Below are positions 5,835 to 58,552 of a stretch of 64,000 nucleotides of DNA, one piece after another; within the stretch, counting starts at the first letter, position 1; every line of letters begins with the position of its first letter. Source of the stretch: Macrolepiota albuminosa (lineage: Eukaryota; Basidiomycota; Agaricomycetes; Agaricales; Agaricaceae). Location: contig JAMWFC010000115.1 of assembly GCA_027475525.1 (NCBI GenBank), positions 1,364,001-1,428,000 on the forward strand, read 5' to 3'. The notes beneath the pieces were generated by a model, which was not told the DNA's origin, made no database searches, and saw nothing but the letters and a program-made list of their open reading frames with translations. The translations under genes were made by a program, and so were the position numbers.

Positions 5835-8382
5835 ATGACGAATGAACTAACCACCAAGGCGTCGAGCACCGACGAGAAGAGGTCGAGTATCGAAAAGGCA
5901 TGCAGAGTCTCGGAAGAGCATGGTGTCGACCTCGATGGTATCCACGATGGACTCCAGTTCCCAACGGATCAGGAGCGGGAGAGTTTGCGAAGAGTCCCCG
6001 ATTCTCTCCCCTGGAGCGCGTATCGTGAGCTACACCTAGTCCCCCCCCGGAGCGGGAGAGTTTGCGAAGAGTCCCCGATTCTCTCCCCTGGAGCGCGTAT
6101 CGTGAGCTACACCTAGTCCCCCCCCTCTCTCCCGGGCACTCATTGATAAACCATACCAGTCATTGCATTCGTCGAGTTGGCAGAACGGTTCTCGGTATCC
6201 TAACCTTGTCTGTGTCCGCTCGTAATGATACTGACAGACAGCATTGAACAGTTCTACGGTTCCTCGGTCGTCTTTGTCAGTTCTCTAGACGTGGACATTG
6301 GCTTCTCGGCTGAAATAGGACACTCCACAGACAAACTTCGTGCAGCAAAAACTCCCTCCAGGCTCACACACAGGCGCCGGGTTCACACACGGTCAATCGG
6401 GTGCCTTGGGTAAAGGACAGCGCGCCTCAACAGGTCTCACGACGTTCTACCAGTTCTGGTATGTCATCTGTAATCTCTATTTCTCCCGATTTTTGCGCCG
6501 TTGAGAGATTTACATGGCAGGTGCTTCGTCACGCCTTTGCTCGGCGCTTACATCGCTGATACGTACCTTGGTCGATTCAACACGATATGCATCGCAGTGG
6601 CGATCGCACTCCTTGGCCATATCATCCTCATTGTCTCGGCTGTTCCGGGTGTCATTGAGAAGACGGATGCGGCGTTGGTGGTGTTTGTTATAGCCCTTGT
6701 ATTGATGGGGCTAGGGACCGGCCTGTTTAAGAGTAATATTTCGCCATTGATTGCTGAACAGTACAGGCGCACTCGTTTGTTTGTCGTGTCCACGAAGAAG
6801 GGCGAGCGGGTGATAGTCGATCCTGTGATGACGATTTCGAGGGTCTACATGGTGAGTGGGCTTTTTTTAGAGGAAACGCCCAGCCTCATTTCACGGGGGA
6901 AACACATAGTATTTCTACTTTTTCATCAATATCGGTGCGCTTATTGGTCAGATTGGCATGACTTTTGCAGAAAAGGTGGTTATTTTTTTTTTGTTTTCCA
7001 ACTCTATGGGCGTTGAAAAGTTTATCTTTTCCTTTTTTTTGTCAGTATGTCGGGTTCTGGCTCGCGTACACGCTTCCGACGTTTGTATTCCTCTTATGCC
7101 CAATTGTGCTTTTCCTCGGTCGCAATCGCTATGTACGCTCCCCACCTACCGGGTCGATTCTCTCAACGGCTTTCCATCTGTGGAGACATGCCGCTAGAGG
7201 CAGATGGAGTATCAACCCCGTAAAAACGTACCGACAACTTACAGCACCTGATTTTTGGGAGAACGCCAAGCCCAGCAGGTACACTGGTGTAAAACCGAAA
7301 TGGATGGATTTTGATGACGAGTGGGTTGACGAGGTCAATCGCGGGCTGAAAGCATGTTCAGTGTTTTGTTGGTATCCCATCTACTGTGGGTTGCACGTTA
7401 TTTCCCTACCTTATATTTATTTTCTGACCCAGTTCGACACAGGGCTTACGTATAACCAGTTGAACAACAACCTGACTTCGCAGGCGGCGACGATGTCTAC
7501 GCATGGTCTGCCTAACGACGTGCTGTCGAATCTGGATCCCTTTGCCCTCATCATTTTCATCCCTATTTGTGATGTCATTGTATGTGTTTTCCCGATGATT
7601 TTTGGTGAAACTAGTTTTAATGCAAGGCGTAAAGATCTATCCGGCGCTTCGCCGTGGTGGACTGGACTTTAGCGCACTCAGGAAGATTACTGGAGGATTT
7701 TTCGCCGGATCCGCAGCTATGATCTGGGCAGCAGGTATTTAGCAAATCTGGATGTAAACGAATTCTAACTCTGTCAATTCAGTTGTTCAGCATTATGTTT
7801 ACAAGGTAAAGTTTGTAGTGCCAGAGGGAATGTCGAAGGTGACGATGAGGTTCTAGACAAATCCTTGCCACTATTCAGCTGCAACCTGTGTCGACGTAGA
7901 CGGAAATGTTCTCGTCTCTCCGCTGAACGTCTGGATTCAGACGGGATCGTGAGTACCATTTTTGTTTTATCCTTAACTTAAGCAGACTTACGGTTGTAGG
8001 TATGTTCTCATTGCTTTCAGCGAAATCTTTGCGTCAATCACTGGATTAGAGTACGCGTTCACCAAAGCACCCAGAAACATGCGCTCGCTTGTGATGGCTG
8101 TTTACCTCTTCACCTCGGCTATTTCCGCCGCTCTTGGCGAGGCATTTGTCTGTACGTTCTTTTCAAATCACCTTAGTTGTTAACCGTAAGGGCTGACGAG
8201 GATATCGTTGTAACGTAGCACTGTCATCTGACCCGCTGTTGGTGTGGAATTATGGCACTATGGCAGTTCTTGCTGCAATTACGGGGACGATATTCTGGTT
8301 GCATGTGCGTAAGCTTGACGCACAGGAAGACGAACTTAACAACTTGACCGTACAAGCCGATGGTGTTGTTACGACATCTTAA
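5835..8382 (+). CDS. POT/PTR2-family oligopeptide:proton symporter, paralogue 1
   Basis: Predicted 593-aa plasma-membrane transporter taking up di/tripeptides with protons. Thirteen exons: 5835-6024, 6160-6194, 6252-6275, 6331-6458, 6521-6851, 6910-6975, 7046-7385, 7443-7579, 7635-7734, 7783-7805, 7857-7948, 8000-8151, 8219-8382. Lengths sum to 1782 nt and all phases agree. Seen: the POT motif ELAERFSFYG (ExxERFxYYG, split over exons 2-3), the second PTR2 signature FYFFINIGALIG, many hydrophobic segments, and a typical length for the family. Exons 3 and 10 are only 24 and 23 nt. Exon 1's splice donor lies inside a 77-bp tandem duplication that only lengthens intron 1 if the first donor is used. 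The inverted paralogue at 10984-15291 has the same exon lengths throughout the core. Confidence 0.92.
5972..6125. repeat. 77-bp tandem duplication 1 (exact)
   Basis: Copies 5972-6048 and 6049-6125 are identical. They include the end of POT exon 1 and its splice donor. Probably an assembly joint (see findings). Confidence 0.95.
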
Positions 8383-8689
8383 ATGCCCGGTTTATTGTGT
8401 TCTCGTTTGTAATACACACTTAAGCACTTGTACAGTAGCTGACAGCTTGGACCCTTCTTGGGACATCTTCGGGGTGTGCCGAGATATCTATCACAAGAAA
8501 TTCTGATGCAAACAATGTTGGTGTGTATATGCAAAGTAACGAATACTCAGGCCTATGGTCAGTCACACAATGAGCACGTGCCATTCCTGACCTGTCGAAG
8601 GAAGACGTCTCAGGCGCATTAGACGCTCCGTCGTTAGCTGCACTGCTACGCTGCAGGCCACGTTGCGTTTCATCCTCCTTCGCTACACC

Positions 8690-10581
8690 ATGCGTCAGCC
8701 TAACATCCACCGCCCTGAGCTGGTGAATTCAGCTCGGCGCCGGCTTAGTTTAATTTCCATATTCAACCACATCCCGTCCACCCCTCGAGCTATAGTGGAG
8801 TCCTCTACGATCTCTGCAACTCAGCCTTCATATTCGATACCTGCAGACATAATCCGCGAAATCGTCAATCTCTTGCCGCCCGCTGATGTTTTGAGCTTTA
8901 GCTTAACGGTTTGTGCTTGCTTCACATAGAGCAGGTGGGAGGAACTGATGTTCTGTCTGTTTAGTGTTCAACCATGCGCGATTTCTTATTCCCAGCTTTG
9001 TACCAATCTGTCTTCTTAGGATCGAGCAGACAATGCAGAGTTGCCCTGTTCATGTTGTCTAATCACCCAGAAATTTGCATGTATGTTCGAAGCTTGAGCG
9101 TACGACCTAATTATTACTTGGCCTGGCCAAAGCCAGACGAGGCGTTGGATGAAGAATGGGTTGCTGCAACAATTTCTCGGATGGCAAAACATTTCACATT
9201 GCTAGACACTTTTGACTGGGATGGTCTTGAAGCTCCTCCTGATACTATGTGGAATTCATTGCGGAGGTGGTATGTCCGCCCTCTGTTTTTACATGTCAGG
9301 AATCTGAATAAAAAACAGGTGCCCGAAACTGCAACATGTCTTTAGCAATGTTGGACTAAGACCGATCGACCCGGATAGCCAGGTAATGATCTGATCCTTT
9401 GATTCGTCCTCATCCTCATCCTCATCTTTGCCAGCTCTTCCAATTCTCTGATCTCAAAAGTTTTTCTTTGATTGTTCGATATGGCCTTCGAGGAACAGGT
9501 CAGACTCATTACATTGATTGAAGGACGTCTCTCATAATATCTTGAAGACCTTTTTGCCCTCCCAGAAACTCTTCCAACGAGTTTTTGGGATATGATCATC
9601 CATCGTTGTCCACACCTTGAGGAACTAGTTATCTGCAGTTTTTCTTCTTCAGCTCGTGTTTTCGATGTTCTTCCTATAACTGAAGCACGGTGGCCGAAAT
9701 TACGAACTTTGACTCTGGGTTCATTTGGCTATCAAGCCGACTTCTCACTGGGTGTAGCAGAAGAGATATCCTTCTTTAAATTTCTCGATAGCCACCCTAA
9801 GCTCAGCTATCTTCGTCTACAGTGGAACTTTAAACGGTGGATGTCTCCCTCTGATCTTCGATTTGAACTTTCTCCCAATGCCCTTCCTGAGTTGGGTGCC
9901 TTTTGGGGCATATATCAACAACTAGCCAAGCTTCCCAATCGCAGCTCTATTGAAACGTTAGATCTAACCTGCGAACCTCTTCACGAAAATCGATTGACTC
10001 AAATCTGCCCTTTACTACAATCACTCACGTCCCTGACCTCCCTGGACCTGTGGAGCCTCATGACAGGACAGGATAACACTCATCTGTTTTCATCTTTATT
10101 TTCGTCATGCCCCAAACTTACTGATTTCCACTACATGAGCACAACGAGTTTCCCAATTGTGAGTCTTTCCTTATTCTCAATGCGAATGATGCTAACGTCT
10201 GCTCGATAGAAAAGTTTGAAACAGCTTCTCTCTCAGTTGGATCGTCTTCCGGACCTTAAACGATTTTCTTTAACCAAGGGTCATCGATACACCGACGAGA
10301 ATATGCTCGATAGCGTGCTTTTGATCCTGAAGTATAAACCCACGCTAGAACAGATCAATATTCGATGGGCGCGGGAAAAAGCCCCTAATCACCTTAAACA
10401 GGAAGGGACATATGACATTACATCGATGGAAGACCGGCCTTCCTTCATTACAGTACATGAGCAAGGCATACCACTGGTGGGACGGCCGTTTGATCGTAAA
10501 TACAAATACATCCTTCGGTCGTCCGACGTGCCGTCGCTCAAGCAAAATCAGCTACTCCAGCTCTTACGCATTCGATCATAG
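8690..10581 (+). CDS. F-box / leucine-rich-repeat protein
   Basis: Predicted 543-aa F-box protein, presumed substrate adaptor of an SCF ubiquitin ligase (binds Skp1 through the F-box). Exons 8690-8908, 8965-9266, 9319-9382, 9435-9498, 9548-10158 and 10210-10581 join in frame to a stop at 10579. Seen: F-box helix IPADIIREIVNLLPPADVLSF followed, across intron 1, by CSTMRDFLFPALYQSV. Next come leucine-rich segments such as LRTLTLGSF, LSYLRLQW, IETLDLTCEPL and LTSLDLW, typical of the large basidiomycete F-box/LRR families. An upstream in-frame ATG at 8663 is possible; 8690 was preferred by context only. It sits between the two inverted POT paralogues with no obvious functional link. Target unknown. 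Confidence 0.82.
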
Positions 10582-10599
10582 AGTAAGTGTTTCGTCTCA

Positions 10600-10980
10600 T
10601 TCCAGCTTTCGTGGTCCACATGTCTTTTAGGGGTTGAGTTCTTTAGATACCCTGACCATGGATGCTAGGAGCCATGCTTTGTATCGCCTATCCTGCTCTT
10701 TATCGCGCTCTTGAATTCATTGCTCTGTATTAACTCTTTGTGCTATGTGCTATTGTAGTAAAGCTCGTTCCATTGTTAGTCTGTACGCCCGGGAAACTCT
10801 ACTTATGTATTTATCTACCGCTGAAAGTTGTTGTACTTTGATATCACAAGGATGTTGGATTATTGCTACCGAGGCTTGGCGCTCTGAGGAATAGACAAGG
10901 ATTGTTATTGAAAGGAATTACAGCTCCAAGTACTTACCATATCAACTACAAACTACCTTCCGGAAGACAAAAGTTCGTTT
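10600..10980. other. Intergenic between convergent F-box and POT2 genes
   Basis: About 380 bp between two gene 3' ends. It should hold both 3' UTRs. No clear terminator or further coding sequence seen. Confidence 0.5.
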
Positions 10981-10983
10981 ACT

Positions 10984-13900
10984 CTACGCATTTAACTGAC
11001 CTCGAGACTTTGACTGTCCTGCATTGAAGTTCGAAGCTGACAAGTTGTTGAGTTCGTCTTCCTTTGCATCCAATTTGCGGACCGCAATCCAGAAGATAGT
11101 ACCAGCTACACATGCGAGGACAGCCATAGTACCATAGTTCCATACAAGCAGTGGGTCAGTGGAAAGTGCTGTGTGGATGGTTGTCAACTTGAGATTTCAT
11201 GATGGAGATTTCTGTTGAACGGGTCGTCGCCGAGGCCAGGAATGGAGAGTGCGAGCGCGTGAATGTAAACTGAGGAATGAGTCGAATGTGAGTGTTTGTG
11301 AGTGCAACCGCCGTCAAAGAGGGCGCGGTCATCAATGACAGAAAGGAGTGGCCACGCGGGGCCAGTGCTGGCTTGACTCGGCCAGTGCGGGGACACGACA
11401 ATAAGCGTATTGAAGGTGTAGAATACAATATACGTAACTACGAGTTATGCACGAAAGTATTTGTACGTATTAGTATTTAAGGTGTCCGTGCAGCCTGGTA
11501 CTGTAACAACACTCCCACCCATGCAAACGGACAGCAAGAAAAGAATTACAAAACGCTCCCACCGAAACTAAGAACTCCCACCGTTCCTTCAAAGCAGGCG
11601 TGGTGCGCGCGAGGTGTTAGCATGAATAACTTGAAGCCCATTGTCGTCATCGGAATCTTGTTCATCAAGATCGGCGTAGGCACGACGAGCCTTTTCACGG
11701 GCATGGTCCTTAGCACCTTGAAGAACGAGGTCCTTGATGGCAGAGGGCATGTCACGAGCACAGAGACGAGAGATGTGTCCATCACGACCACAACGGTGAC
11801 AGCTGTCACCATTCGACTTGTCACACCAAGTGTACTTCCCTTCCTTAAATCCGTCAGTAGCCGGCTCACGCTGAGTCTTTCCCTTCCCCTTGTCCTTCTC
11901 CAACCGTGCTGAATTACCAAACTCGGACTTGATGATGTACTCGCTATTTGCAGATCCAATGAGAGTAGATTTGATTTTCGTGAGGTCAGGTTCAGTTTCC
12001 TGAGCGAGAATGCTGGTGCGGATGGCATGATAAGAAGAGTCAAGGCGGCGGAGAAGGTGATCACTGATAGTAGTGTCCGAAACAGTTTCACCAAGGTTCT
12101 TGAGCACCTGGAAAGCAGTAGTGACAGCCTGAATGTAGATTTCAATAGGACGGGAAGTATCGTGTTCAATAGCATCAATATTGTCACGAGCACGGATGCG
12201 GCGGCCCATCGTTGATTTATTGTATGCTGCTTTGAGAGTAGACCATGCAGCAGCAGCAGATTTGATGTTCTTGATTCTGTAGCGATGCTCGGGTTCCATA
12301 GAAGCATAAATATACGCAACTAGAGCTTTGTCCATTTTCTCTTCCCCTTCAGCAACTGTCCCAGATGTCACCCAATCAGCTCCAACACCCATGAAAAACA
12401 TCTCCATGTTTTCTGCCCATTCCATCCAATTGTCATCACCAAGTTTGGCGGATTCAGCAAGGGCCTTTGAAAGAAAAGCTGAGATAGCAGTGGAATTGGT
12501 AGAGGACATGATGTCGAACGAGCCAGCCTAAGGGACAGTGGTTGTGGTTGAGGAAAAAAAATGTGGACACGAGGCAACCGCGGAGAACGTGGCGGAGACT
12601 GAACAGCGATCCGACAATGCGTGCAGCCAGCGGTTACATGTCAAGAAAATAAATAAGTAAAAGAAAGTCGTGAGGTTGTGAATGAGATGCGCAGGGTCAC
12701 TCGGGGCCCATAACCTGTTGAACGGGTCGTCGCCGAGGCCAGGAATGGAGAGTGCGAGCGCGTGAATGTAAACTGAGGAATGAGTCGAATGTGAGTGTTT
12801 GTGAGTGCAACCGCCGTCAAAGAGGGCGCGGTCATCAATGACAGAAAGGAGTGGCCACGCGGGGCCAGTGCTGGCTTGACTCGGCCAGTGCGGGGACACG
12901 ACAATAAGCGTATTGAAGGTGTAGAATACAATATACGTAACTACGAGTTATGCACGAAAGTATTTGTACGTATTAGTATTTAAGGTGTCCGTGCAGCCTG
13001 GTACTGTAACAACAATTTCATGATGGAGGAATCACATACGGACGAAGGCTTCTCCGACAGCAGATGCAATGGCTGAAGTGAAGAGGAAGGCCGACATTAC
13101 AAGAGAGCGCATGTTGATGGGTGCTTTGGTGAAAGCATACTCTAAACCAGTAATGGAAGCAAAGATTTCACTCAACGCAATAAGGACGTAGCTATCAGTT
13201 TGATAATCAGAATTGGAGCAACAGATATGTTTGAAACACTGACGATCCAGTCTGAATCCACACATTAAGAGGCGATACAAGTTGATTACCGTTTTCATCT
13301 ACACAGGTAGCAGCAGCATAGCCGCAGGGGTTTGTCTGCGTTGATAATCAGCCGGATTTACCAACAAAATCAGTGAAAAAGATTCTACCTTGTATATGTA
13401 GTGCTGAAGGACTGGACAATAATGAATCGATAACAACGAGTGAATGGAAACTGACGCTGACCTGCAGCCCAGATCATCGCTGTCGTTCCAGTATAATAAC
13501 CCCAAGCAATCTTTTTCAAAGCACTGAAGTTGATTCCAGCACGACGGAGGGCAGGATAAATCTTGAGGAGGAATGAGCCAGTCATTCAACTGGTGACCGA
13601 GATTGAACCTTTTACGTACAAGAAGATCACAAATGGGGATGAAAATGAGGAGCGCCAAGGGGTCCAAATTAGAGAGGACGTCGTTGGGCAGACCATGTGT
13701 CGACATGGTAGCGGCTTGAGACGTCAAATTGTTGTTCAACTGGTTGTATGCGAGCCCTGAACGGTTTCATGCCTCAGCAGCATTCAAAGCGGAACACTCA
13801 AACAATTACAGTAGACTGGATACCAGCAAAAGACAGTGCAGGCTTTCAAACCGCGACGGACTTCGTCGACCCAGTTGTCGTCAAACGTCATCCACTTCGG

Positions 13901-15291: not shown

Positions 15292-15371
15292 AGGTAGTGG
15301 GTATGAACGGAAGGGCCTAAAGCAAATGAGTTTCGATGCGTATAGATTTGTTACGTTTATACTCGGTCATA

Positions 15372-15383: not shown

Positions 15384-15399
15384 GGAGAGGGAGCACCAT

Positions 15400-22170: not shown

Positions 22171-23975
22171 TGGACAAGATTGAATCAAAGATAATTATTG
22201 TGAGCTGTATTCAGATGACCAAGGTGAATCACATTGCCTTGTGCCAACGTGAAGTTATTTGAATGTTGCAAAGAATGGAGAAGAGAGAACTATCTGAGGT
22301 GTGAGCAAGGGCATCGTGAATTGCAGATTGAAATTATATATCAAGGGTCGGAGTCCAAAAATGGAACATGAAGCGTAGGGTCACCAGAACCGTTTCTCCT
22401 GATAAGGTCTACTTGGTGGTCGAATCACGCGCTGACATTTCTCAACACACCCCGGCTCTGGACGTTGCCGGTGATTTCACCTCTGTCTTGGTCCAAACCT
22501 GCCTGCTACAGCCTTCTACCCCGGCGTGCCGCGAGCTTCAAGTAAAAGTGCAAGGTAGTCCAAAATCCGCAAACAGGGATAATGATCCGACAATATGCCG
22601 AGAGCTTCATTTCCTTCCGGTACACTGTCAGCCACTGTGATTCTCACAAACCTGTTTGAAGTTCTATTAGTGCCTTGGCTATTTTCACATTGCATGTGCA
22701 CACAGGCTAAAATTATTTACATTGGTTGCATCATATTGTTCTTGCATCATATCTGCAGTGTGAAAATCTCTAGCATGGAATCTAGTCTTCTGAGCCTCCT
22801 GCCCCCTGGCACTTGGACTGGCCATGTACTGGATAAGAATTATAACATAGGAAGTGGTTAAAGTGGTCTTAGAGCATGGATCTTAATCTATCTGCTGTCC
22901 AAATATGAGAGTATGTGTTGATATTCTGTACCTCATAAACTAACTACATACATATAATGCTCTGAGAAACATCTATTTTGAATGTTACGTTTTACAAGGA
23001 AGTGCTGATGTTGATAAAAAGGAAGATAATGAAAATGCATCTTTAAAAATTCTAGTCAATTATTAACTGACATAGATGTATCACAGCAGGATACACAAGT
23101 AAAAGAAGTATAATATTTTAGATAATCTTCTATAAAAAAAAACTCAACATCTATAGGAGAACAGTCTTTTTTATCTAAAACTTGAGCAACATAGCAGGGT
23201 AATTTAATTAGTGGAAAGATTATATGTCATAGTACACATAGTAGTAGTGTAATGCACAACAAAGTACTAGTCATAAAAACTGAAATAAATGCATCAATAA
23301 ATGGCAAGGCAGACATAGTAGTAGTGTAATGCACAACAAAGTACTAGTCATAAAAACTGAAATAAATGCATCAATAAATGGCAAGGCAGAGACATGTAGA
23401 CAAAAAATTTCCTCAACAACTATAAATATTGCCTACATGTATATATAAACCAGGCAGTGTAAAAAGACAAATAATAGCAGCAGCAAATCAGGTCAGAGAT
23501 GTGTATTGCAAGTAGTATGCAAGGGTGTAGCAAAACTACTATAGAATGCTGCATAAATTTATTGTGTTATATGACCTGATAGAAATTTGGCAGAGAAAGG
23601 AAATTTCTAATTCAATAGAGAATGCTCTCTGGTCATTTACATAAGAGAGTTGGAGAAGTTAAATACAGAGCTAGATAGAAACACACTCAGGCTTGATTGT
23701 AATCATTAGAACTGTATGGGCAAATATTGATATAGATGAGTTTTTCTTGTTTTTTTCTTTCTTAGTAGTATCACTGTAGGCACCATAGACAATTCTCAAA
23801 GTTGACCTCCAGAGGCCAGGATATTGCAGCATGACCCACTTCTGTAAAGGGATTGTACTTTCATGTTATCAAGGGCAGAAATGCATTTTATGTATAAATT
23901 CAAGATTTTTGTCTGAGAAACAGTGTGGGACTTAAGAAGTTTTATTCAAACATAATATCCACTAAACCTTCTTTT
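22170..23975. other. AT-rich intergenic stretch with no supported gene
   Basis: Base composition drops sharply in G+C from about 22.9 kb and stays low into the transposon island. Open frames at 22368-22861 have no recognisable domain. It contains 77-bp duplication 2. Confidence 0.5.
23236..23389. repeat. 77-bp tandem duplication 2 (exact)
   Basis: Copies 23236-23312 and 23313-23389 are identical. Non-coding AT-rich DNA. Confidence 0.95.
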
Positions 23976-23978: not shown

Positions 23979-25347
23979 CAGTTTAAACCAAGGAGGAGTC
24001 ACATGCGCAATATGTCATATCAGGTTGGGTAGGTAGGTCGAGGCCTTGACATCTGAAATTTTTTTGGAGGGGTGATATCACCTGCCTAAAAAGAAAGTTG
24101 TTTGCCAAAAGCCCACTTAACAAAGTTGATTTTCAGGGTTGATTTCTCTCTCACAGCCTGGGCACCAAAACATTTAAGTCAGAAATGGCGGTAAGCTCCA
24201 TTTATGCTGACATCAATGTTACTAAAGTGCTCAAATACTTTCATTCATCCCAATTAGTTTAACGTAGATAAATCCAAGTTAATTGTTGACACAGATAATT
24301 ATGTACTGTGTCCATACTGTTATACACACATTAATGTTGGAAAAGTCGGTCTCTCCAACTGGAAGAAAGTGCACAAAGGCAGCAAGAAATGTACTGAAAA
24401 CTTGAAAAAATGGAATGCTGCTCAGATCATCAAAAAGTCTTGAAAGTGCACAAAGGCAGCAAGAAATGTACTGAAAACTTGAAAAAATGGAATGCTGCTC
24501 AGATCATCAAAAAGTCTTGAACTAAGGCTGTAAGTTTTTTTGCACCCAAAGCTCCTTGTGTCAAAGCCACTGTATCAGCACCACTACCTATACAGTCAAC
24601 ATCTTACACCTCAAACAACTCAACAAAACCTTGCTACCAGTCCCTGCATCTGTGTGCTCTGATGCTATAAAGCTTGATAGAGAAGTTGAAATGTCAAAAT
24701 TAACACAAGACGACATAAACTCACCTTTCCGAGCAACCTCCTGCCTGTCATCTGCTTCTCACTCCACCACAAATAATCACAGTGCCCATCAATTGCCACC
24801 TGTACCTGAACCCACACTTGAACTGCAAGGTTCAATGTCCTTGCTTCTCTCAGATTCGACTCCTAAGCCTAAAGATGCCAATGTCAGTAATGGATTTGAC
24901 CAAGAAGGGCCAAGGACACGTATTGGACAAAAGCAGAAGACAAAAGACTTGATATCATTGTTGGCAGAGTGCATATGTGGTTTTGTGGTCTCCAAGATGG
25001 AGAGGAGCAAAGCAATCCAGTGCAAACACGATTCATGTGAAACTTGATGGGTATGACATTATGTTATTTACTCCAAAGATGGCATCACTCACCTGCTGCT
25101 TCAAACCATCTACACTGCATAGGCTTAGAGTGTAGAGTGAATGGGTGGATGTGTGAAGCTTGTGAGGCTAACAAATGTGGTAGTGAAAAACAGTGTTGAG
25201 AATAAGGCAACCGGCTGGTGATCTTTAGTGATCCAATTACTCTATTTGGAATATTAAGTAAGCAGATAGGTAGGTAGGTCACTCAGACAGCCCTAAAAAA
25301 ATTTGACTCAATATGTTTAATTTTTTTTGACCCCCCCTTGGTTTAAA
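23979..25347 (+). mobile_element. Degenerate DNA-transposon-like element with BED-like and PHD-like motifs
   Basis: Flanked by inverted ends: GTTTAAACCAAGG at 23980 and its complement CCTTGGTTTAAAC ending near 25347. Internal remnants read on the plus strand. A zinc-finger-like segment (CPYCYTHINVG...SNWKKVHKGSKKC) lies at about 24315-24400, then FFAPKAPCV and TVSAP, then an ORF at 24556-25047 ending in SKAIQCKHDSCET. After a frame break comes GWMCEACEA. The order matches Cys/His proteins that accompany transposons in mushroom genomes (from memory). The catalytic part is missing, so it would be non-autonomous. The target duplication is not clear. Confidence 0.5.
24365..24518. repeat. 77-bp tandem duplication 3 (exact)
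   Basis: Period 77; copies 24365-24441 and 24442-24518. It breaks the frame after the BED-like finger of the surrounding element. Confidence 0.95.
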
Positions 25348-33350: not shown

Positions 33351-33504
33351 ATGACATGCCCTAGGCAGTCTATACTCTGAGTGTAGAGCTCACATTTCTT
33401 CCACTTCAAGTACAACTTGTACTTGCGATGACATGCCCTAGGCAGTCTATACTCTGAGTGTAGAGCTCACATTTCTTCCACTTCAAGTACAACTTGTACT
33501 TGCA
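33351..33504. repeat. 77-bp-period tandem duplication 4 (76 of 77 match)
   Basis: Copies 33351-33427 and 33428-33504; only the last base differs. Within RT of the young gypsy element. Confidence 0.93.
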
Positions 33505-33812: not shown

Positions 33813-33966
33813 CCTCCTGATCTGGTAAAGGAGTTACATCCTTTATGGTGTTGTCATTGCGCTGACGTGCATCAAGAGCTGTTTGAAGGCCTCCTGATCT
33901 GGTAAAGGAGTTACATCCTTTATGGTGTTGTCATTGCGCTGACGTGCATCAAGAGCTGTTTGAAGG
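33813..33966. repeat. 77-bp tandem duplication 5 (exact)
   Basis: Copies 33813-33889 and 33890-33966; breaks the RT frame. Confidence 0.95.
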
Positions 33967-34186: not shown

Positions 34187-34340
34187 TGACCATGTCAGCA
34201 AATTCTTCTTGCCATTGCTGATGCAACCGAGGAATATCTTCCTCACGAAGGCTTGTCGCCTTCTGACCATGTCAGCAAATTCTTCTTGCCATTGCTGATG
34301 CAACCGAGGAATATCTTCCTCACGAAGGCTTGTCGCCTTC
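34187..34340. repeat. 77-bp tandem duplication 6 (exact)
   Basis: Copies 34187-34263 and 34264-34340; breaks the frame between protease and RT. Confidence 0.95.
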
Positions 34341-34581
34341 TGCTTCTCCTTCATACGTACCAGGGGAAGTACTTCCACCGTCTCTGAGAGTGGCCGAGGT
34401 GGCGGTGCATACTGCTTGCACATTGCGAGCACCCAACTGACACTGTCATCGGGTATATGTAGTCTCAGTGGAGCACCCGCTGCTGCTGCCTTATAAGCCA
34501 CGAGGCTTCTTCCCTCACGTACAAGTGAGTACGCTACGGACACCTCGTCCGAGGCTGGCTGGCAATACGCTGGTTTGACGG

Positions 34582-36504: not shown

Positions 36505-38439
36505 TCAAAACCATCCCATGGCCTCTCCGGCCAAGAACTCAGGAAGAACAAAGATTTGTTCTCGTTCCATATGGTCGCCTCCATATAAGCACATGGCGAG
36601 ATGGGTGCATACATCCATCGCCCAATCTTCCAGGTTGCTGAACTTGGACGTGCCTGTATAGGCGCGAATGTGCCTAGATGGGTGCATACATCCATCGCCC
36701 AATCTTCCAGGTTGCTGAACTTGGACGTGCCTGTATAGGCGCGAATGTGCCTACTGTCTGCTTTACGCAGCTTCACTCCGTCTGGTAACCGTAAGCTTAC
36801 GCCCAGGGCATCATCAACTACTTGATGCAGGCGATTGTGCATGGCTTCACGATGCATTCGAATGGCCTCCCGCTGACCTGGGGACCTAGTTGCCAAATCA
36901 GCGGCATGGGGAAGTGACTTCCCTCGTGCACCTTGCGGAGGACATCCTGAGCCTCCTTGACTGTGGGCATAATTGCCCTCGTCTTGAGGAATCGACCTAG
37001 GGCCGTCATCCCGGCCGTTACCAGAGACATCACGTCTCATGGGCGCCATCTCGATCGAGGAAGTCTCCTCGATCATGATTGTTGCACCGCCCTGGAACTG
37101 GAGAAGCTTGATTCTCCTGACCCTGCGTGACGAATTGACGACACATCTCGTCAATGGGCTTAGTGCCCTCGAATACGATGCCCTGATCGTCGATAAGGGA
37201 CTGTCCCTTAGTCCTGAGGTCGCCATTGCGCATACATTGATACGCGACTCTGTCGCTCAACATTTCGGCCATGGGCACGTGCAGCATCACAGATGCCTCG
37301 CTCTCCACCTTGAGCATGATACTATCGTGCCCATCCGGACCTGACATATCTGTCCTACGGTCGTGGTTACGCATGTGTGGGGGCTCCTCACGCCACCCTT
37401 GTCCTGCTGGAGTATAAAAAGTACTCACCGGTCTTACTTCGGGCACTTCCTGCGCCCGTGCTAGTGCCTCCACTAGCTCGATTCCGACGTCTTGATTGCG
37501 TCGTGCTGAGCATTCCTCGGACGTGTGGCTCCAGGGGGTCAAGACCCCCGATTGCCGTGTGGCCTTCCGCTGCATATACATTTGCAGCTCCATCGTGAGC
37601 ACTCTCACCATCAAATCAGTATATTTTGTACTGAATACATTGGGCACTTCGTGCCCTTGTCGCCTAAGTGCTACTATATGGGCTGATGCATAGCGCTCAA
37701 GTTGCGCTTGGGTGGTGTATTTCATCACCTCTGGGTGCAAGTCCCAGAACACCCGCAAGCGCACGGTGTACGTGGTTTTCAGCCGCTGTTCCTCTGCTCT
37801 GGTGTCGTCGTCACTTGACGACTCCATCACCTCCTCTGGAAGCTCTACAACCTCTGGAGCTTCCTCCACTGCTGGTGTGCATGGGAATTGGTTTTCCATG
37901 CGGGATACTTCAGGCCTTGCAGCCTCCTCCGGTACCTCCTCTATGCAGGCTTCCGCCATTTTAAAAGGCATTGAGCCTGCGGTGGACCGCCTGGTCCCAC
38001 TACTCTGGCTCGGAGGGAGGGCTCTCCCAGTCCGTACTGACGACTCGGCATCTCCTGGGGCACCATAGGCGCCGATTGACTGTCGGCCGTCCTCCAGGGG
38101 TCCTTTGAAAGCCAATCGGCTAGACCGTCGTGGTCCTCCTGGCAGCTGCATAACTGGGGGCGTTAATCCCCTGGGCATCTTGTCCTGGAGGCGTTGCAGA
38201 CCGTCCTGCTGTGAGCTTTCAGCTCTCCGGGCCTCGCTCTCATTCCTGGCCAGGTCGGTACTCTGACCTCGGTCTCGAGCCTTGGGTCTTACCTGACCCA
38301 CGTTGGATGCTGATGCGTCCTGGGTGTCTGCTGGGTCTCCCCGTAGGTCGTGGGCATTTTGCCCGCCGTCAGTGGGCACTGCATATATGGGATTACTCAT
38401 CGATTCCCTGTTTGAAATTTGCATGGTGTGGCTGTGCAA
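36505..38439 (-). pseudogene. gag: Gypsy Gag N-terminal region, frame-disrupted
   Basis: Two overlapping frames carry it. A 469-aa ORF at 38439-37030 is rich in charged and Ser/Pro residues (VFWDLHPEVMKYTTQAQLERYASAHI; RNHDRRTDMSG). The other frame, 37226-36505, holds DVSGNGRDDGPRSIP, the helix HREAMHNRLHQVVDDALGV and FSNLEDWAMDVCTHL, continuing toward the capsid-like domain. The change of frame near 37.03 kb, a TGA at 36505-36507 (again CGA expected) and duplication 7 at 36599 prevent a single reading. Start uncertain. Confidence 0.7.
36599..36752. repeat. 77-bp tandem duplication 7 (exact)
   Basis: Copies 36599-36675 and 36676-36752 inside gag; duplicates the FSNLEDWAMDVCTHL coding stretch out of frame. 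Confidence 0.95.
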
Positions 38440-42704: not shown

Positions 42705-43600
42705 TCCACTTATAATTGTATCTTTTGAGGATGTGTCATGTCTACAATGTATGCCTGGCCATCAAGGCCATCAAGGCCTTTAACAGCAATGCCATTTTTG
42801 ATGGAGTTGTTGTTGGCTGATGATGAGCTCATTGTCTTTTCTCCTTTGTCTCCTTTTGTGGCTCTCCACATGGCTTTGGACTCATTGATTGTCTTTCCAG
42901 CCATCCCTCCTCCTGGAACTGATGCACCATTCTTTTGTGTGGCCTCAGCATGACTGTCCAGAGGTGTGGCACATGCTGCAGCATGGTATTTAGATTGGAC
43001 ATGCAGGGTCACAAGGACCTATCATTGATACAGTTCAGAAGGGCAATACACTTTGGTAAGTCCTTGTCTATGGTCCTATTGCAAAGGCACAATCGACTAG
43101 TTCACAGATCTTTCTGGCAGTAGTGTCAATAGGTAAGTCCTTGTCTATGGTCCTATTGCAAAGGCACAATCGACTAGTTCACAGATCTTTCTGGCAGTAG
43201 TGTCAATAGGTTCTGTGACAGGTGGGTATGTTAAGAGTGTTTTGCAGATGAGGACTACCTGTTTGACAGGTCCTTCTCAGTGTGCACATGCTTTTAGAGT
43301 GTTATAGCATTCCTTGGCCATACTATCAGTTTCCAGCCTTTCCTGCCTAGATGACACTGATGATCAGGTCATTGTTGGACAACCAGTGCATATGCGTTGG
43401 GCTCCATGCTGGGATCTGGACTAGTGATCAGCCTCAATGGGAAACTCTTGTACAGATTGACATAGTCATGTAGAGGCTGCCTATTTACCAAGTGGATATC
43501 CTTTTGGGATCAGATCAATTGCTGTGTTTGGAATGTGGTGTCAGGAGTCATGCCTCCCATTGAACCAATTGCCTACTCATCTGGGATTCACTGCCAGGTT
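42705..43600 (-). mobile_element. Degenerate transposon-derived coding DNA
   Basis: On the minus strand, with frame changes allowed, the DNA still reads protein-like: the segment before 43600 gives GYPLGK, then CTGCPTM-type and KACAH stretches, and VDMTHPQKIQL closes near 42712. The order and tone suggest a gag-like or unknown TE protein. I cannot assign a family. Confidence 0.35.
43055..43208. repeat. 77-bp tandem duplication 8 (exact)
   Basis: Copies 43055-43131 and 43132-43208 in the degenerate TE stretch. Confidence 0.95.
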
Positions 43601-48776: not shown

Positions 48777-48930
48777 CGGCATTGCCATTGTGCGAGGTAA
48801 TGGTCAGGACAAACAAGGCAATCAGTAACGTCATCCATTGATTTATGACCAAGCGGCATTGCCATTGTGCGAGGTAATGGTCAGGACAAACAAGGCAATC
48901 AGTAACGTCATCCATTGATTTATGACCAAG
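48777..48930. repeat. 77-bp tandem duplication 9 (exact)
   Basis: Copies 48777-48853 and 48854-48930 within the CxC2 cysteine cluster of the KDZ remnant. Confidence 0.95.
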
Positions 48931-48981
48931 CAATCTATTAAGCAACTGTGGAACATGGTTGATGAAATCGTTAAGATAATC

Positions 48982-49135
48982 TGCCTGTGTCTATGTATGA
49001 ACTTGAATAATTCGCTCTCAATAATAGCATACATTCAAATCACCTTTACATGCCTTATTGCCTGTGTCTATGTATGAACTTGAATAATTCGCTCTCAATA
49101 ATAGCATACATTCAAATTACCTTTACATGCCTTAT
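48982..49135. repeat. 77-bp-period tandem duplication 10 (one internal mismatch)
   Basis: Copies 48982-49058 and 49059-49135 differ at one base (C at 49041, T at 49118). Confidence 0.93.
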
Positions 49136-49609: not shown

Positions 49610-50350
49610 TGGTTGCAGAAAATCATATTGTCTACAAACATGTCTGCCCTCCTGCAACCACCTGAATCAATATTTTCACCAAAGAAAAGATGAGTAGAAC
49701 CAATATTTACAGCAGAAGAAAGATCTATCTTTGAACCATACAAGGAACTCTACTGCTTCTCAACTACTCCTCAAGCTTGGACTGCTATCTTGAAGGATAA
49801 AATCCTAATGGATATTTTCAACTACTGGGCCACTACTCAACTACTCCTCAAGCTTGGACTGCTATCTTGAAGGATAAAATCCTAATGGATATTTTCAACT
49901 ACTGGGCCACTAAGGAAAGAGTAGGCAGAGAGAGTCAAAGTAGGTACAGCAACTTATTGCAAAGAACTAGACATTATTTGCTTGAATAGAAGGTTGTCCA
50001 GTATATTAAGAATTGCTGGCGCCCTTATTACCAGCATAAAGATCCAAAGGTGCTCCTGAAAACTTCACTGCGAGATGTTGTCCGGCAGACAATGGCAAAG
50101 GAGATAAACAAGGAGATCCAGAACTTGTTGAGGGGTAAGGATCACAACACCTTGGGATTGGATGCATTTGCACAATATAATGTAGCTGTCAAAAATGTTA
50201 TGCATCAACTCACACCTCAGGAGGAAAGTTGTTTATGGAAGATGGTGGCAGAATGGAGCAAAAAAGGAAATCTGCCAGAAATTCAGCGCAAGTTGGTACC
50301 CCTTCCATCTCCCATCTGTCCTTTATTTGTTGTACATCCATCTGCTTGAT
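49610..50350 (+). mobile_element. TE-associated ORF remnant
   Basis: Plus-strand pieces. The best is 50050-50349 (KTSLRDVVRQTMAKEINKEI, VKNVMHQLTPQEESCLWKMV, EWSKKGNLPEIQRK), which resembles helical ORFs associated with fungal transposons. Upstream pieces are broken, in part by duplication 11. No catalytic domain seen. Confidence 0.4.
49759..49912. repeat. 77-bp tandem duplication 11 (exact)
   Basis: Copies 49759-49835 and 49836-49912. Confidence 0.95.
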
Positions 50351-51700: not shown

Positions 51701-52241
51701 AACTGTGTTTTTACATGACCAATGAAGGTGTGACTAACCGGTACTATCATGTGCGCCTAGGTGTGACTACCAGAGAGGGTTGCAGGTGAGACATGCCCCA
51801 GGGGAGTCTTGCTTTGACAACCACTCTCTAGGTAAGTGGCATAATTTGAAGGGAGTGTCACTAAGACAACCGCGAGCTAGGTAACTTAACAAGTATATTT
51901 TTGTGCCTAGTACAAGGTATCAACCATTGTTACCTCAATCAACCATTGCTACCTCAATAAAATGGATGAGTCAATATGCCTCGCAGCCTGCTGAGTCGGC
52001 TGGGTCCATCCTGGACAGCTGAGCAATCAGCCAACCCACTCAATGGGATAAGCCCGGAGTGGGAGGAAGCAAACCTGAGAACGTCAAATCAGGAACCAGT
52101 CACCCCCTCCAAGGAGGATCAGACATCTCTGAGCAGGCTATCCTTGAGCAACTCAAAGGTCACGTTGAAGCATTCAGAAAGGGTAACAAGTCCTGACTAG
52201 TTACCATCACCGCTATTGTCAGCATAGCAAACAAGTCTGGA

Positions 52242-53444
52242 GTGCCGTCTGAAGCTCGACAAGACACCATTAACAGTTACCTTGCCCTCATTGAGGGCAT
52301 CAAAAAGAAAGCTCGAGCCCACCACCGTCGAGCAAAATGCCATGAAATTCCAAAAGCTGAAATCGAGCTTCGAGAGAGCGCAAACATTGAAAAAACAGGT
52401 TCCGCTAGCATTGCAGACAACTCGGGAGAACGAAATGAGAGTGGTCTCCAAAGACATAGAGATGAGAGAGGAGCACCTAAATCCCTTAGAGACAGATTGT
52501 TGTCACCACAATCCATTGACCAACTCATGGCAGAGTATGCCAAGTCAACATGCGAGGCAGGCTCCAAGAAACCCCCGGAAGATGAGTGCAGTGACACCGA
52601 TTCCATGCAAGACTCCAAGTCTTCTGATGAGGATGGAAGCCTCGAGTGTAAACACAGAAAATTTGATGAAAGGAACTTACCTTGGTTCAAGCAAGAGCAA
52701 TTTGCCAGAGAGCATGGTGATCCTCAATGCAGCTGCAACCGTGAATTGCTCAGACAGTACATGCACAACATTAGCAAAGTCAAGCAAAGCATCCTTACCT
52801 CGCAAACTGCTCCCTCTGACTTCCCATCTTCTGAATGGGACAAAGTTCTTCGCGGAGAAGCTGTCTGCTTCAATGCAATTTATAGCTCTGTTGGACATTT
52901 GGGAGCTCCTCGAGAAAATAGAGGATGTCTTGGACAGCGTGAGATTGTCTTTGGAGTCAGCACTCCGGTTAGGAAAGTACAAACAAGTAGTCAATGGCTT
53001 GTTGCCACCAATATCTATGCTAAAGCACTCCGGTTCACTTTCCCTGACCGAGACCAAGAATTCCAGTCCTATGCTGCCCAAATCCTCAACTTGTTTGCCA
53101 CTAAGCATGAAAGCGCTCACGGAAAAGTCATTGCCTACAACAAGGCAGTCCGGACAAGAGTCGGAGGAGGCATCTGGTTGCTACTCACAGACTCAAACAA
53201 ATTCATTGATCTCTGGGATTCCACCCTCAACGTCGACAGGATCAATTATGGAGGAAGAAGATCATTCAGTTCAGGACCAAGTCAGACAGGATCAGGCATG
53301 CCCGGTAGAGAAGCCCTGTGCCATCGTTGGAATAGTGCAAAAGGTTGCCCATTCGACTCCAGCATCTGCCACTGGATCCACCAGTGCCATAACTGTGGAG
53401 GACCCCATCCCAGACACACGTGCACAGAGACACGCAAGAATTGA
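52242..53444 (+). CDS. Gag-like protein of the DIRS/Ngaro-like element
   Basis: 400-aa open frame. Charged N-terminal half; middle with FPSSEWDKVLRGEAVCFNAIY and ALRFTFPDRDQEFQSYA; C-terminal cysteine fingers CHRWNSAKGCPF...C, then CHNCGGPHPRHTC. These features match Gag of basidiomycete tyrosine-recombinase elements as I remember them. A second frame (52282-53778) is open across almost the whole ORF and runs on into pol. Confidence 0.75.
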   Translation: MPSEARQDTINSYLALIEGIKKKARAHHRRAKCHEIPKAEIELRESANIEKTGSASIADNSGERNESGLQRHRDERGAPKSLRDRLLSPQSIDQLMAEYAKSTCEAGSKKPPEDECSDTDSMQDSKSSDEDGSLECKHRKFDERNLPWFKQEQFAREHGDPQCSCNRELLRQYMHNISKVKQSILTSQTAPSDFPSSEWDKVLRGEAVCFNAIYSSVGHLGAPRENRGCLGQREIVFGVSTPVRKVQTSSQWLVATNIYAKALRFTFPDRDQEFQSYAAQILNLFATKHESAHGKVIAYNKAVRTRVGGGIWLLLTDSNKFIDLWDSTLNVDRINYGGRRSFSSGPSQTGSGMPGREALCHRWNSAKGCPFDSSICHWIHQCHNCGGPHPRHTCTETRKN

Positions 53445-54409
53445 ATTAGTTCGTGATTTCAAACCTAAATATTTACGTTTCTATTATGAGGAGGACAAAC
53501 ATGATGTGGCTATGACTACCTCCTTATGGTCGGAGTCGGCTAAACCATTGCCTGAACCCCCTTTGAAAGAGCTGCAGAATGCGATGTTGATGGAAACAAT
53601 TGAAAAACACCCTCATTTATTCAAAATTGTAACACCAATTAACGTCGATTCTCTCGAACTTATGCTAGAAAATCACCCAAATCAACCTTTTGTCCAATCT
53701 GTCTGTGATCAAGAGTCTTTGAGAAGGCTTCTGGCTCTTTGCAGACACGCACCCAGACTACTTTTCTTCGATTGTTGATATGTCAATGGCTACCCCGGAA
53801 GTCTCTGCAGAGGCAGATTTCTTGAGGAAGCAGAGAGACATTGAAATATTGAAGGGCAGATTCTCCCTGTCATTTGAGAAACTGTTGTATCCTTCTATGA
53901 CCAGTTCTCCTATCTATGCCGTTCCCAAACCACACTCTGAGGATTTTTGCTTAGTCACAGACTTGACAGCAGGAACATATTCGCTTAACTCAATGGTTCC
54001 TTATAGCAGCATATCTGGCTTCCTACTTGACAATCTCAACCAACTAGGCCGAATTTTGCTCAGAATCAGGGAGTTCTCTGATAGACAACTGGTTCTTTGG
54101 AAGTCAGACGTTGCAGAGGCATACAGGCTAATTCCGATGCACAAACTCTGGCAGCTAAAACAGATAGTGACCATTGATGGTGAGAGGCATGTTGACAGAT
54201 GCAACTGCTTTAGTGGGAGAGCTTTCCTTTATTGTTGGGGAGCCATGAACAGCCTCATCACTGGGATAGCTGAAAACGTCAGAGAGGTGCGGCGACCATT
54301 AGTTTTCAATGACAACACATTTGGTGTCAATGATGAAGATGACTTTTCTTACTACAAACCATATTGTCAAGATCTACCGACCAATCAGTGCCAGCTGCTT
54401 GAATTATAG
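53440..54409 (+). pseudogene. DIRS/Ngaro-like reverse transcriptase, N-terminal two thirds
   Basis: Starts in the 52282-53778 frame (FKIVTPINVDSLELMLENHP), shifts near 53.73 kb into the frame of 53780-54409. Seen: SPIYAVPKPHSEDFCLVTDLT, WKSDVAEAYRLIPMH with a catalytic Asp, and a box FNDN (54308-54316) where YxDD is expected. Terminated by TAG at 54407, after which the same frame continues as DKLGVPHKPKKQVFGAPL. Confidence 0.78.
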
Positions 54410-54463
54410 GACAAGCTGGGAGTTCCTCACAAGCCAAAGAAGCAAGTTTTTGGTGCCCCATTA

Positions 54464-55279
54464 GTGATTATTGGGATCTCAGTTGATCCCAATGCGGTGA
54501 TAATGACACTTCCAACTGGGGCAAGAGAAGACTTAATAAATGAGATGAAACGGTTTGCGAAATCCCTGAGGGATAAGTCAAAACATTTTACTAAGCGAGC
54601 TTGGCAGAGACTAGCAGGTTGGGTCAATTGGGGCTTGAACGTTTTCCCATTACTAGCCCCATGTCTGTCAAATGTTTATGCTAAAATCAATAATGTCAGC
54701 GACATCCCACATGCTTGCATTTGGTCCAACAAGGCTATCAGATCTGACCTTCTTTGGGGTATCCACCATATAGAACGCTCCGATGGTGTGAGGATCTTGA
54801 CACTTGCCCTATGGGGGGAAGTTGAAGCTGATCTCATAGTTGAGTCAGATGCTTGTCCCACTGGATTAGGATTTTGGCACCCCCAAACATGTACAGCATT
54901 TTTTGCTGAACCACCAACAAACGTGCCTACTGGTTCCATCTTTTTCCTGAAAGCGTTGACAGTCGCGTCTGCTTTCTCTTTGGTGGTCACCATGGCAACA
55001 TGCCCTCTCAAAGTCTTAATCTTCACTGACAACATGAATACAGTGTCTATTTTTAACAGCTTGCATGCACTCCCATTTTACAACGGTCTATTGAGGCACA
55101 CTGTAGATCTTCTCCTTCACGGCCATGAACTCAGAGTCCAGTTCATTCCTGATCATGAGAATCAGGTAGCAGATTTTATTTCCAGGCATTGCTTCAGTGA
55201 GGCCTGGAGGATGTTCCCATCACTTAAAGTAAACTTGTTTCAACCCCCTCAAGATCTGCTGGGGGCAGCAGAAAAATGA
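54464..55279 (+). CDS. DIRS/Ngaro-like RT thumb and RNase H domain (separated by a stop)
   Basis: 271-aa open frame. RT thumb (RAWQRLAGWVNWGLNVFPLL), then RNase H with VESDACPTGLGFWHP (Asp), LIFTDNMNTVSIFN (Asp) and HENQVADFISRHCF (Asp), the usual RNase H acidic residues. It was part of one Pol protein before the TAG at 54407. Confidence 0.78.
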   Translation: MIIGISVDPNAVIMTLPTGAREDLINEMKRFAKSLRDKSKHFTKRAWQRLAGWVNWGLNVFPLLAPCLSNVYAKINNVSDIPHACIWSNKAIRSDLLWGIHHIERSDGVRILTLALWGEVEADLIVESDACPTGLGFWHPQTCTAFFAEPPTNVPTGSIFFLKALTVASAFSLVVTMATCPLKVLIFTDNMNTVSIFNSLHALPFYNGLLRHTVDLLLHGHELRVQFIPDHENQVADFISRHCFSEAWRMFPSLKVNLFQPPQDLLGAAEK

Positions 55280-56285
55280 TTCCCTCTCTGGTTAACTCCA
55301 GGCAGCCACAGAGGGCAGCCTGGACATGTGAGAGACTCATTAGAGAATGGTCTCTTGCATTGGGGATGTTCATTGACTCCAGTACTTATCTCTCCTATTG
55401 CTCCGCTTTGAATTCCTATCTAAACTTTGTTCGGCTACACGACATGGACATTGAACCCACTCAAGATACTCTGTTATTCTACATCGTGTATATGTCCCAC
55501 CATATTGAACCCTGCTCAGTGCGATCATATCTTTCTGGTATCTGCAATCAACTCGAAATATATTACCCTCAGATCAGAGAAATTCGTCATTCCAGCCTTA
55601 TCCGGAACACCCTTGCCGGCTATATGAGAATGAGGTTGGCGCCTACCTGCAGGAAACTCCCATTGTCCACGGACAACTTACTTCATGTCGTCAATAGCAT
55701 GAACCCATGTACCAACCACAATGATCTGCTCTTCGTCTTGCTCCTACTCATGGGTTTTCATGGTCTTTTACGTCTCGGAGAACTCTGTGAACCTGACAAC
55801 TCCCTGCTCAAAAATGATTGGAAAGTGATTAAGTACTTATCTGTCAAAGTTTTTGACACCCGTTTCGAATTCTTGCTTCCAACGCACAAATCTGAACCCT
55901 ACTTCAAAGGCAACAAAATTGTCATTCTCAGGACCACTTATGCTGCAGACCCACACAAATTCTTCTTACTCTACCTTGACAGCCGAAAGAAGAGGTTTCC
56001 GCTGTGGAGAGAGCTGTGGCTTATGGAGGCAGGCAGTTCCCCTTCCCGGTTGTTCTTCATTGACAAACTTCATCATTTTTTTCCAACTTCGATAGCAGGC
56101 CAATCGATGTGAGCCAGAGGTGCAACCTTCCTTGCTGAATCAGGCATTGCCCCGCACTTAATTCAAGCAGCTGGCAGGTGGTCTTCGAAGGCTTTTCAGC
56201 GTTATATTCAGAAGAACCCAATACTCATTCATGCAATGGATTCTTGTCACTTGGCCAGCACAGCAGCTCATGACGTTCAGCAATA
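55276..56285 (+). pseudogene. Tyrosine recombinase of the DIRS/Ngaro-like element
   Basis: Open to 56112, then continuing after a TGA to about 56285. It overlaps the RNase H frame by 4 bases (ATGA). Seen: SAM-like N-terminal part (SALNSYLNFVRLHDMD, SYLSGICNQLEIYYPQ), the first catalytic Arg in GFHGLLRLGELC, and the nucleophile Tyr in FQRYIQKNP after QAAGRWSS. The HxxR motif is lost: the His codon is now CAA (56101) and the Arg codon TGA (56110-56112). Confidence 0.75.
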
Positions 56286-57006: not shown

Positions 57007-57146
57007 TAGAATGTATGTGGTGCCATTATTCTTTAAACAATTTTGACACCAATTATAGTCATGACAATATGTCATACTTGACCCATGCTAACTGACCTAC
57101 CTTTCAAGACTCCTTTCCTGACCTTGTTAGTGACCTCAACAAGAAG

Positions 57147-58552
57147 ATGATGGATTACATGTCTGCTCTTCTTGGTAGAGACATGCCATCCAACATGCAA
57201 TCGTCCCATGATTTGACTCCTCCTATCTTTACATGCCATGACCTCATTCTTGATCTGGATAGGAATGGATTTCCAATATTACCAGCAGATCCAGGACCAA
57301 ATATATTTCAAACTTGGGCAGAATTGAAAATGCTTGTCCAAGACTATCTAAATACTCATTACAGTGAATCCTAGTTTTCTCCACCTTTGCTCATCATCTG
57401 ATTACTCTGTCAGAAATTGCGTCTGGTTACTGTTATGAATGTGCTCCTTACAAGGCAGTGAAGACCAATGATCAGCAATTTATACATTCAAAGTATCTTT
57501 CAGAGGGTCTGATATTCCAAGATTCCCATAATCTTAGTCAGCCTGAGCTATTGCATCTGCTGAACTTCTGAAGAGACTGTCAAGGACAGTATGGATCTGG
57601 TGACACCTTCTGCTAGATGGTTTATCTCAACCATTACAAGCAGCCAGTAGCTGCTGAGTACAGCACCCAAGCTGATCATGAAAAAAATGTAGCAGCAGCA
57701 GCAGCATGTAAGGCTACATGCAAAAATAAAGGGAAAAATCAGAAACAGAGGCCAACACCATCAGCGGTAGTTGATGGCAACAGTAGGACCATTGCTAATG
57801 ATGGAGCAGCTGATGGCAGATCCGCTTTAGTCACCGGATCTGCAGCCAACTTGGAGTGGCAACTAGGGCCTACACTTTCTCTGTCACCTAGCATACCACA
57901 CACACCACTGTCTAACTTACAGGAGGAACCCCCTGTCTTGCGCTCACTGCACACTCCACAGCCTCAACACCACAACAGATCCATGGTTCACAACAAATCC
58001 CAACCAAATGTATCAGCTTCCGCTCATAACAAGTCTGCTCACAACGAATCTGTTCATGATGAATATGGTGATGATACAGCAGTGGTAGATGCCACTACCA
58101 TCCACCTCTTACAACAAAGAGGATGGAGCCATCCAGACCCTCCAATTAATGGCCCTAGTGATGGTTCCCCTAGATATAGAGTGTCAAGAAACAAAGAGGA
58201 TGGAGCCATCCAGACCCTCCAATTAATGGCCCTAGTGATGGTTCCCCTAGATATAGAGTGTCAAGAAAGATGTTCGACATTCTTCAAGATGAGGACAATG
58301 ACCAATTTGAAGGTGAGGAAAGGCTGGCATTACAAAACCAAAAGAAGCACAAGGCATTGCCTAACCAATTGTCAACAAATTCCAAGCGACCCCGCAAGTC
58401 TCAAGCACAAATGTTACAGGAGGATGCAGCTCGATACATTGATATGTCTACACCAGCAAAAAGGAGTAGCAGCTGCACTAAGGTCATTCAACCAGTCTGC
58501 CATCATTGATGTGGGGAAGGGGAGAATGTTACATTACATTTTTGTAAACTAA
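57147..58552 (+). mobile_element. TE-associated ORF remnant with low-complexity tail
   Basis: Plus-strand pieces: 57147-57374 (LILDLDRNGFPILPADPGPN, FQTWAELKMLVQDYLNTHY), then a broken stretch. From 57617 comes a basic and Ser/Pro/His-rich tail (CKATCKNKGKNQKQRP, HNKSAHNESVHDE). The first piece matches a protein motif I remember from many hypothetical Agaricomycete transposon-associated genes. Duplication 12 breaks the tail. Confidence 0.45.
58113..58266. repeat. 77-bp tandem duplication 12 (exact)
   Basis: Copies 58113-58189 and 58190-58266. Confidence 0.95.

Follow-up and report, generated by a model that had tools for sequence, protein, structure and literature searches.

Tandem duplications of exactly 77 bp in a Macrolepiota albuminosa genome assembly are probably contig overlaps kept twice

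Twelve tandem pairs with a single period

The stretch considered here is a 64,000-nucleotide piece (hereinafter the window, with positions counted from its first letter) of the genome assembly of the agaric Macrolepiota albuminosa (GCA_027475525.1, contig JAMWFC010000115.1, positions 1,364,001 to 1,428,000 of the forward strand), and its subject is a set of short tandem duplications, all of which have a period of 77 bp. A first-pass annotation, made from the letters alone, had listed twelve such pairs by their starts, and all 12/12 are found in the 64-kb window (Table 1). Its description of ten of them as exact, one as wanting the match at the last base of the unit and one as carrying an internal mismatch likewise holds (33351 and 48982, respectively, the latter with a C/T difference). 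It had bounded the pattern at 5972 and 58266, where the pairs are indeed present, but the pattern extends beyond the window, through other sampled parts of the assembly. Its placement of the pair at 5972 within a transporter gene stands only in a weaker form: the pair lies about 350 bp upstream of a recognisable POT-transporter open reading frame (ORF; 6474–7016), and its membership in the gene is only plausible.

Table 1. Tandem pairs of period 77 in the window; the run is the length, in bases, over which each base is identical to the one 77 positions further on
Feature	Position	Strand	Run	Remarks
77-bp pair	5972..6125	.	77	C8 at the end of the unit; upstream of POT-transporter ORFs
77-bp pair	23236..23390	.	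78	
77-bp pair	24365..24521	.	80	
77-bp pair	33351..33504	.	76	last base of unit differs; in presumed Ty3/Gypsy-type element
77-bp pair	33813..33966	.	77	same presumed Ty3/Gypsy-type element as 33351; just before minus-strand RVT_1 match
77-bp pair	34187..34342	.	79	same presumed Ty3/Gypsy-type element as 33351
77-bp pair	36599..36753	.	78	same presumed Ty3/Gypsy-type element as 33351
77-bp pair	43055..43211	.	80	
77-bp pair	48777..48931	.	78	inside a repeat family
77-bp pair	48982..49135	.	59 and 17	one internal C/T mismatch
77-bp pair	49759..49912	.	77	
77-bp pair	58113..58268	.	79	inside long stop-free frame

The window has 14 exact runs of at least 25 bases at periods from 20 to 6000; twelve are at period 77, and the other two at 50 and 1503. 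Tandem Repeats Finder reports seven further arrays in the window, all imperfect or short, with periods of 1 to 50. The longest period-77 run in 20 first-order Markov simulations of the window is 7–9 bases, and the twelve pairs are far above this chance level. A separate tandem array at 61271–61378 (period 50, 2.2 copies, 96% match) falls outside the 77-bp pattern.

Ordinary minisatellites or replication slippage would likewise produce copies arranged in tandem and head-to-tail. However, the period here is one and fixed, the units are unrelated and each site has two copies, which leaves this explanation with a negligible probability. The variable copy number and locus-specific period of minisatellites and variable-number tandem repeats are not found among the twelve window pairs: copy number is two at each site and the period is the same at all of them.

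The period spectrum and density across the assembly

The assembly comprises 100,137,612 bases in 129 contigs, with the window lying in the contig labelled C108. Along with the window we read twenty 10-kb stretches of C108, seven 3-kb loci and five 10-kb stretches of other contigs, in total 335,479 bases or about 0.3% of the assembly, mostly from C108. The spectrum was built from exact tandem runs covering at least half of their period. In the window, the C108 stretches and the seven 3-kb loci, 51 of the 54 such runs with periods of 30–399 are at period 77, the remaining three being at 35, 40 and 50. The five 10-kb stretches of other contigs add seven runs with periods of 30–2999, all 7/7 at 77 and located on C6, C81 and C126. 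Thus, 58 pairs of period 77 stand against three exact tandem pairs of other periods in 335 kb, and the scan of period lengths that the first-pass annotation had proposed for the whole assembly yields, on the 0.3% that was read, a single peak at 77.

In 55 of the 58 sampled pairs the run is at least 77 bases and the copies abut, while three have a mismatch (33351, 48982 and L025:695). The spread of lengths around 77 that would be expected from slippage, unequal exchange or end joining is absent from the sampled sequence. There are no N bases in the window or in L001–L028. The sampled density is about one pair per 6–10 kb, being lower off C108 (7 pairs in 71,479 bases); the 10-kb stretches of C35 and C89 and the seven 3-kb loci of other contigs have no period-77 pairs. 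Counts per 10 kb are over-dispersed across 25 stretches (mean 1.84, variance 3.97).

The duplicated units are unrelated in sequence

The duplicated sequences had been described as sharing nothing with one another, and this is borne out by the wider sample: of the 1485 pairings between the 55 sampled units whose run reaches at least 77, only one has a 12-mer in common, and the guanine-plus-cytosine content of the units equals the background. Moreover, the assembly contains 75 occurrences of the 75-base core of the 58113 unit: two in the window pair and 73 elsewhere, with none of the latter in tandem with another. Unbroken matches span no fewer than four of these 73 (two on C78, one on C56 and one on C69), which probably have their own pair in a different register. 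Similarly, the exact 33813 unit has two other occurrences in the assembly, single at C45 and C47, and the 34187 core has two, single at C114 and C115. As these units also exist as single copies, with the 58113 core doing so 73 times, duplication is not decided by the sequence of the unit. A sequence-specific mechanism was accordingly rejected as a candidate, given the lack of a common motif and the single state of the 58113 core at 73 other places.

Many paralogous copies lack the duplication

Many of the pairs lie in transposons, which have other copies in the assembly. A paralog was taken as single-copy where its match breaks at the junction of the two copies, with the two pieces overlapping by about 77 bases in the target. 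An example is C110, where 1074763–1075137 matches query positions 3–377 and 1075061–1075522 matches query positions 378–839. By this criterion, a script count over 128 rows, covering the best 40 of 1068 candidates, gives 28 single-copy and 12 spanning paralogs at 33351, 24 and 16 at 33813, and 18 and 19 at 34187. At 36599 there are 28 single-copy and 10 spanning paralogs, with one of the 39 other loci present in one piece only and left unclassed (best 40 of 458), and at 58113 the counts are 32 and 7 (best 40 of 195). At 24365 all three paralogs extending over the copy border (on C59, C87 and C74) are single-copy and none spans (best 40 of 73). By eye, among the matches listed from the best 40 of 203 candidates, many paralogs are split at the copy border of 48777 and 48982, and many near that of 49759, where the border is shifted. 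The 43055 pair has seven weaker matches (78–86%), each over one copy only. No match covers the 23236 pair among the best 40 of 73 candidates, and the genome search with the 5972 pair returned the window itself only. In sum, single-copy transposon paralogs are present in the assembly for 8 of the 12 sites (24365, 33351, 33813, 34187, 36599 and 58113 as counted, and 48777 and 48982 by eye), a tally that omits 49759 for its shifted border and 43055 for its weak matches.

The spanning paralogs raise the alternative that the duplications are old and were spread through the transposition of already duplicated elements. We fetched 20 spanning loci out of 27 listed (47 spanning rows by script), chosen as likely to carry a pair, from three window sites and 16 contigs. 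A period-77 run is present in 20/20: 17 have at least 76 of 77 bases matching and L053 has 75, while L037 and L048 are clipped at the end of the stretch. However, 0/20 come within five bases of the window register, the nearest being at about -6, -8 and +10, and at 33351 the run is in another register in 7/7 fetched spanning paralogs. Among the fetched loci themselves, L042 and L046 have one register in common and L045 lies within about two bases of them, which, together with the many paralogs spanning the sites, is what transposition could offer in its favor. Against it, the unit copies are identical or nearly so as compared to 78–97% identity for the listed element matches, and pairs also occur in sequence without any relative found (5972). 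Inherited duplications, first suggested by the BLAST matches spanning the sites, were rejected on the other registers in the 20 fetched paralogs, and we regard this origin as extremely improbable.

The five tested units end, or can end, where genomic copies diverge

A K-mer with more than one continuation terminates a contig in a de Bruijn graph. Six duplicated units have an exact second occurrence among the fetched loci, and the position of the unit within the block shared with that occurrence was measured for five; the sixth, L042, was set aside since in its partner L046 that same unit is itself part of a tandem pair. In 5/5 of the tested units the unit is the last 77-mer before the divergence from another genomic copy, although in two of these only by one of three allowed registers. 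The 33813 unit is the 6th of the 6 77-mers in the block shared with C45, the L021:8741 unit the 23rd of 23 in the block shared with L010, and the L043:86 unit the 19th of 19 in that shared with L030. For the 34187 unit compared to C115, one of three allowed registers is the last of 4 77-mers. For the 58113 unit, compared to 18 fetched of the 73 copies, one of three allowed registers is the last for 17 copies; here, in 16 copies, the left side of the block is truncated by the limit of the fetched sequence, and L065, sharing only 76 bases, is uninformative. None of the tested units (0/5) opens an informative block as its first 77-mer.

These positions also bear on the idea of a real cellular process whose tandem duplications would each measure exactly 77 bp and would number in the thousands, at unrelated sites across the genome. 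The copies are, after all, in the assembly, unrelated in sequence and located both in repeats and in unique DNA, and a slight excess of 1–3 matching bases past the unit would fit microhomology. Yet such a process would have to produce lengths without any spread around 77, leave many homologous sites single along with 73 exact occurrences of the 58113 core, and, at the sampled density, account for some 10,000–17,000 duplications. The coincidence of unit ends with divergences between distant genomic copies would further have to be chance. We accordingly consider a cellular origin very improbable.

Reading frames and the host element

As 77 is 3×25+2 and not a multiple of 3, a duplication within a coding exon would shift the frame. 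At ten sampled pairs (11 rows) the flanks each stay free of stops for 40 codons or more and are in the same frame only when one of the two copies is left out, a count made without a chance control. Given that, and with three window pairs lying in continuously open frames, frame agreement is a weaker indication than it might seem. The minus strand has an RVT_1 match on one side of the 33813 pair (E 9e-18, starting from profile position 61), and Pfam gives none for the piece from the other side; at L021:6405 an aspartyl protease match is present in the left piece only. Among the eight pieces scanned, no conserved host domain is broken by a pair, the domains being those of retroelements only.

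Four of the pairs (33351–36599) are enclosed by identical 235-bp direct terminal repeats at 27313–27547 and 38531–38765. The element so delimited, which we take to be of the Ty3/Gypsy type, codes on the minus strand for zinc-knuckle, aspartyl protease, RNase H and integrase domains, with an additional chromodomain match below its curated cut-off. Bounded as they are by identical terminal repeats, the protease, RNase H and integrase domains give 27313–38765 the look of a recent insertion.

An untrimmed overlap as the likely origin

The constant period, the single-copy paralogs and the ending of units at divergences together point to an assembly artefact, and we hold it as almost certain that the 77-bp tandem copies arose in one or another form of joining during assembly. 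More specifically, we posit, with a probability of roughly 0.88, that contigs of a K=77 graph were joined with their 77-base overlap kept twice. This had been the proposal of the first-pass annotation, namely that segments overlapping by k = 77 were joined without trimming, and it gains support from the peak in the period spectrum, the single-copy paralogs, the other registers of the spanning ones, the 58113 core and the branch ends.

In this scenario, a de Bruijn graph built from short reads, with overlaps of 77 bases, would have been cut into contigs at branching 77-mers, which would stem from repeat copies and probably also from nuclear haplotypes. Adjacent contigs would both carry the shared 77-mer at their junction. 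A later joining step, for example one in which contigs are chained along long reads into Mb-scale sequences, would then concatenate them without removal of the overlap, so that the 77-mer would end up twice in tandem. The period found, 77 and not 76, is consistent with assemblers in which neighbouring contigs overlap by K bases; SPAdes, whose contigs overlap in this way, is an example. We infer the joining program and the use of K=77, as well as that reads would show one copy; in the fungus itself there is probably one copy at each site.

A closely related possibility is that the doubling of a fixed 77-base overlap came from a step of gap closing, haplotype merging or string overlap and not from the joining of de Bruijn contigs. 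Any fixed 77-base anchor kept twice yields the same period, and the restriction of the pairs to one site per 6–10 kb would suit such a step. Nevertheless, we deem it unlikely, as 5/5 tested units (two of them register-ambiguous) end at divergences, which points to graph vertices.

Several observations weigh against the joining of K=77 contigs as set out above. The same density of only about one site in 6–10 kb means that not every branching 77-mer was duplicated. Spanning paralogs are frequent, being 19 of the 37 classified at 34187 (best 40 of 1068); with about one pair per 6–10 kb, we estimate that this frequency results from the scoring of the best 40 of 1068, which favors unbroken matches. 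For C47 (compared to 33813) and C114 (compared to 34187) the shared block continues past the unit, as is expected if only some copies branch there. The branching is at the right end of the unit as stored in all five cases, whereas a symmetric graph should give left ends too; this may reflect the walking direction of a joining program. The cores of 36599 and 48777 are found nowhere else in the assembly, such that their branch partner is not seen, and for these, as for 5972 without a relative, a second haplotype or a read error must be assumed. The run of identity continues beyond 77 in 35 of 55 pairs as against about 25 in a simulation with planted duplications (binomial p ~0.006); the mean run length does not differ from that simulation, where simple repeats make the distribution long-tailed. 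Lastly, at the 34187, 36599 and 58113 pairs the stop-free frames run on through both copies, and the frame shift thus does not always cause a stop.

Other elements in the window

At 6474–7672 and 13068–13766 there are POT-family peptide transporter ORFs and two short inverted matches (80–81%) to 7440–8123, the matches lying 5–6 kb away and looking like a decayed second copy. At 11212–13014, a Copia-type gag ORF (Pfam Retrotran_gag_2) is flanked by two identical 300-bp direct repeats (starting at 11212 and 12715, the pair behind the period-1503 run noted above), in a short element whose repeats enclose little else. Consecutive long ORFs occupy 52197–56112; the three scanned at 53723–56109 gave no Pfam match at E 0.001. 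By eye, we presume these ORFs to resemble an element with a reverse transcriptase and a tyrosine recombinase.

Consequences and comparison with known systems

As biology, the pattern most likely does not matter. For users of the assembly, the sampled density (58 pairs in 335 kb; 7 in 71 kb off C108) would translate into roughly 10,000–17,000 false 77-bp insertions, or about 1% of the assembly length. Each such insertion in a coding exon would shift the reading frame; gene models would in consequence be wrong at many places, as would pseudogene counts, transposon dating and insertion–deletion calls drawn from this assembly. Other assemblies can be cheaply checked for such errors by looking for S[i]=S[i+k] at the k values in common use.

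A literature search found no published account of K-length tandem copies inside finished contigs, which is not proof of their absence from the literature; PMC8041623 offered nothing decisive, and the nearest parallels are with three described phenomena. According to PMC7379835, adjacent edges overlap by K bp in most de Bruijn assemblers, and SPAdes is run there with -k 21,33,55,77. The fixed-length exact overlap at graph vertices, with K=77 in use, is the point of likeness; the overlap described there belongs to the assembly graph, whereas here it has seemingly been left in the finished contigs as tandem copies. In PMC5368935, variants are reported to accumulate at the k position from contig ends, the cause being unresolved repeats. 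As there, the repeat copies in the present case differ at the base adjoining the overlap, but the signal in that text consists of variant calls at contig or scaffold ends rather than tandem duplications within long contigs. Finally, the false duplications treated in the consulted part of PMC9516828 resemble the 77-bp pairs in that a sequence present once in the genome appears twice in the assembly; those stem from haplotypes or read errors and often have gaps between the copies, while here the length is constant and the copies abut with no N between them.

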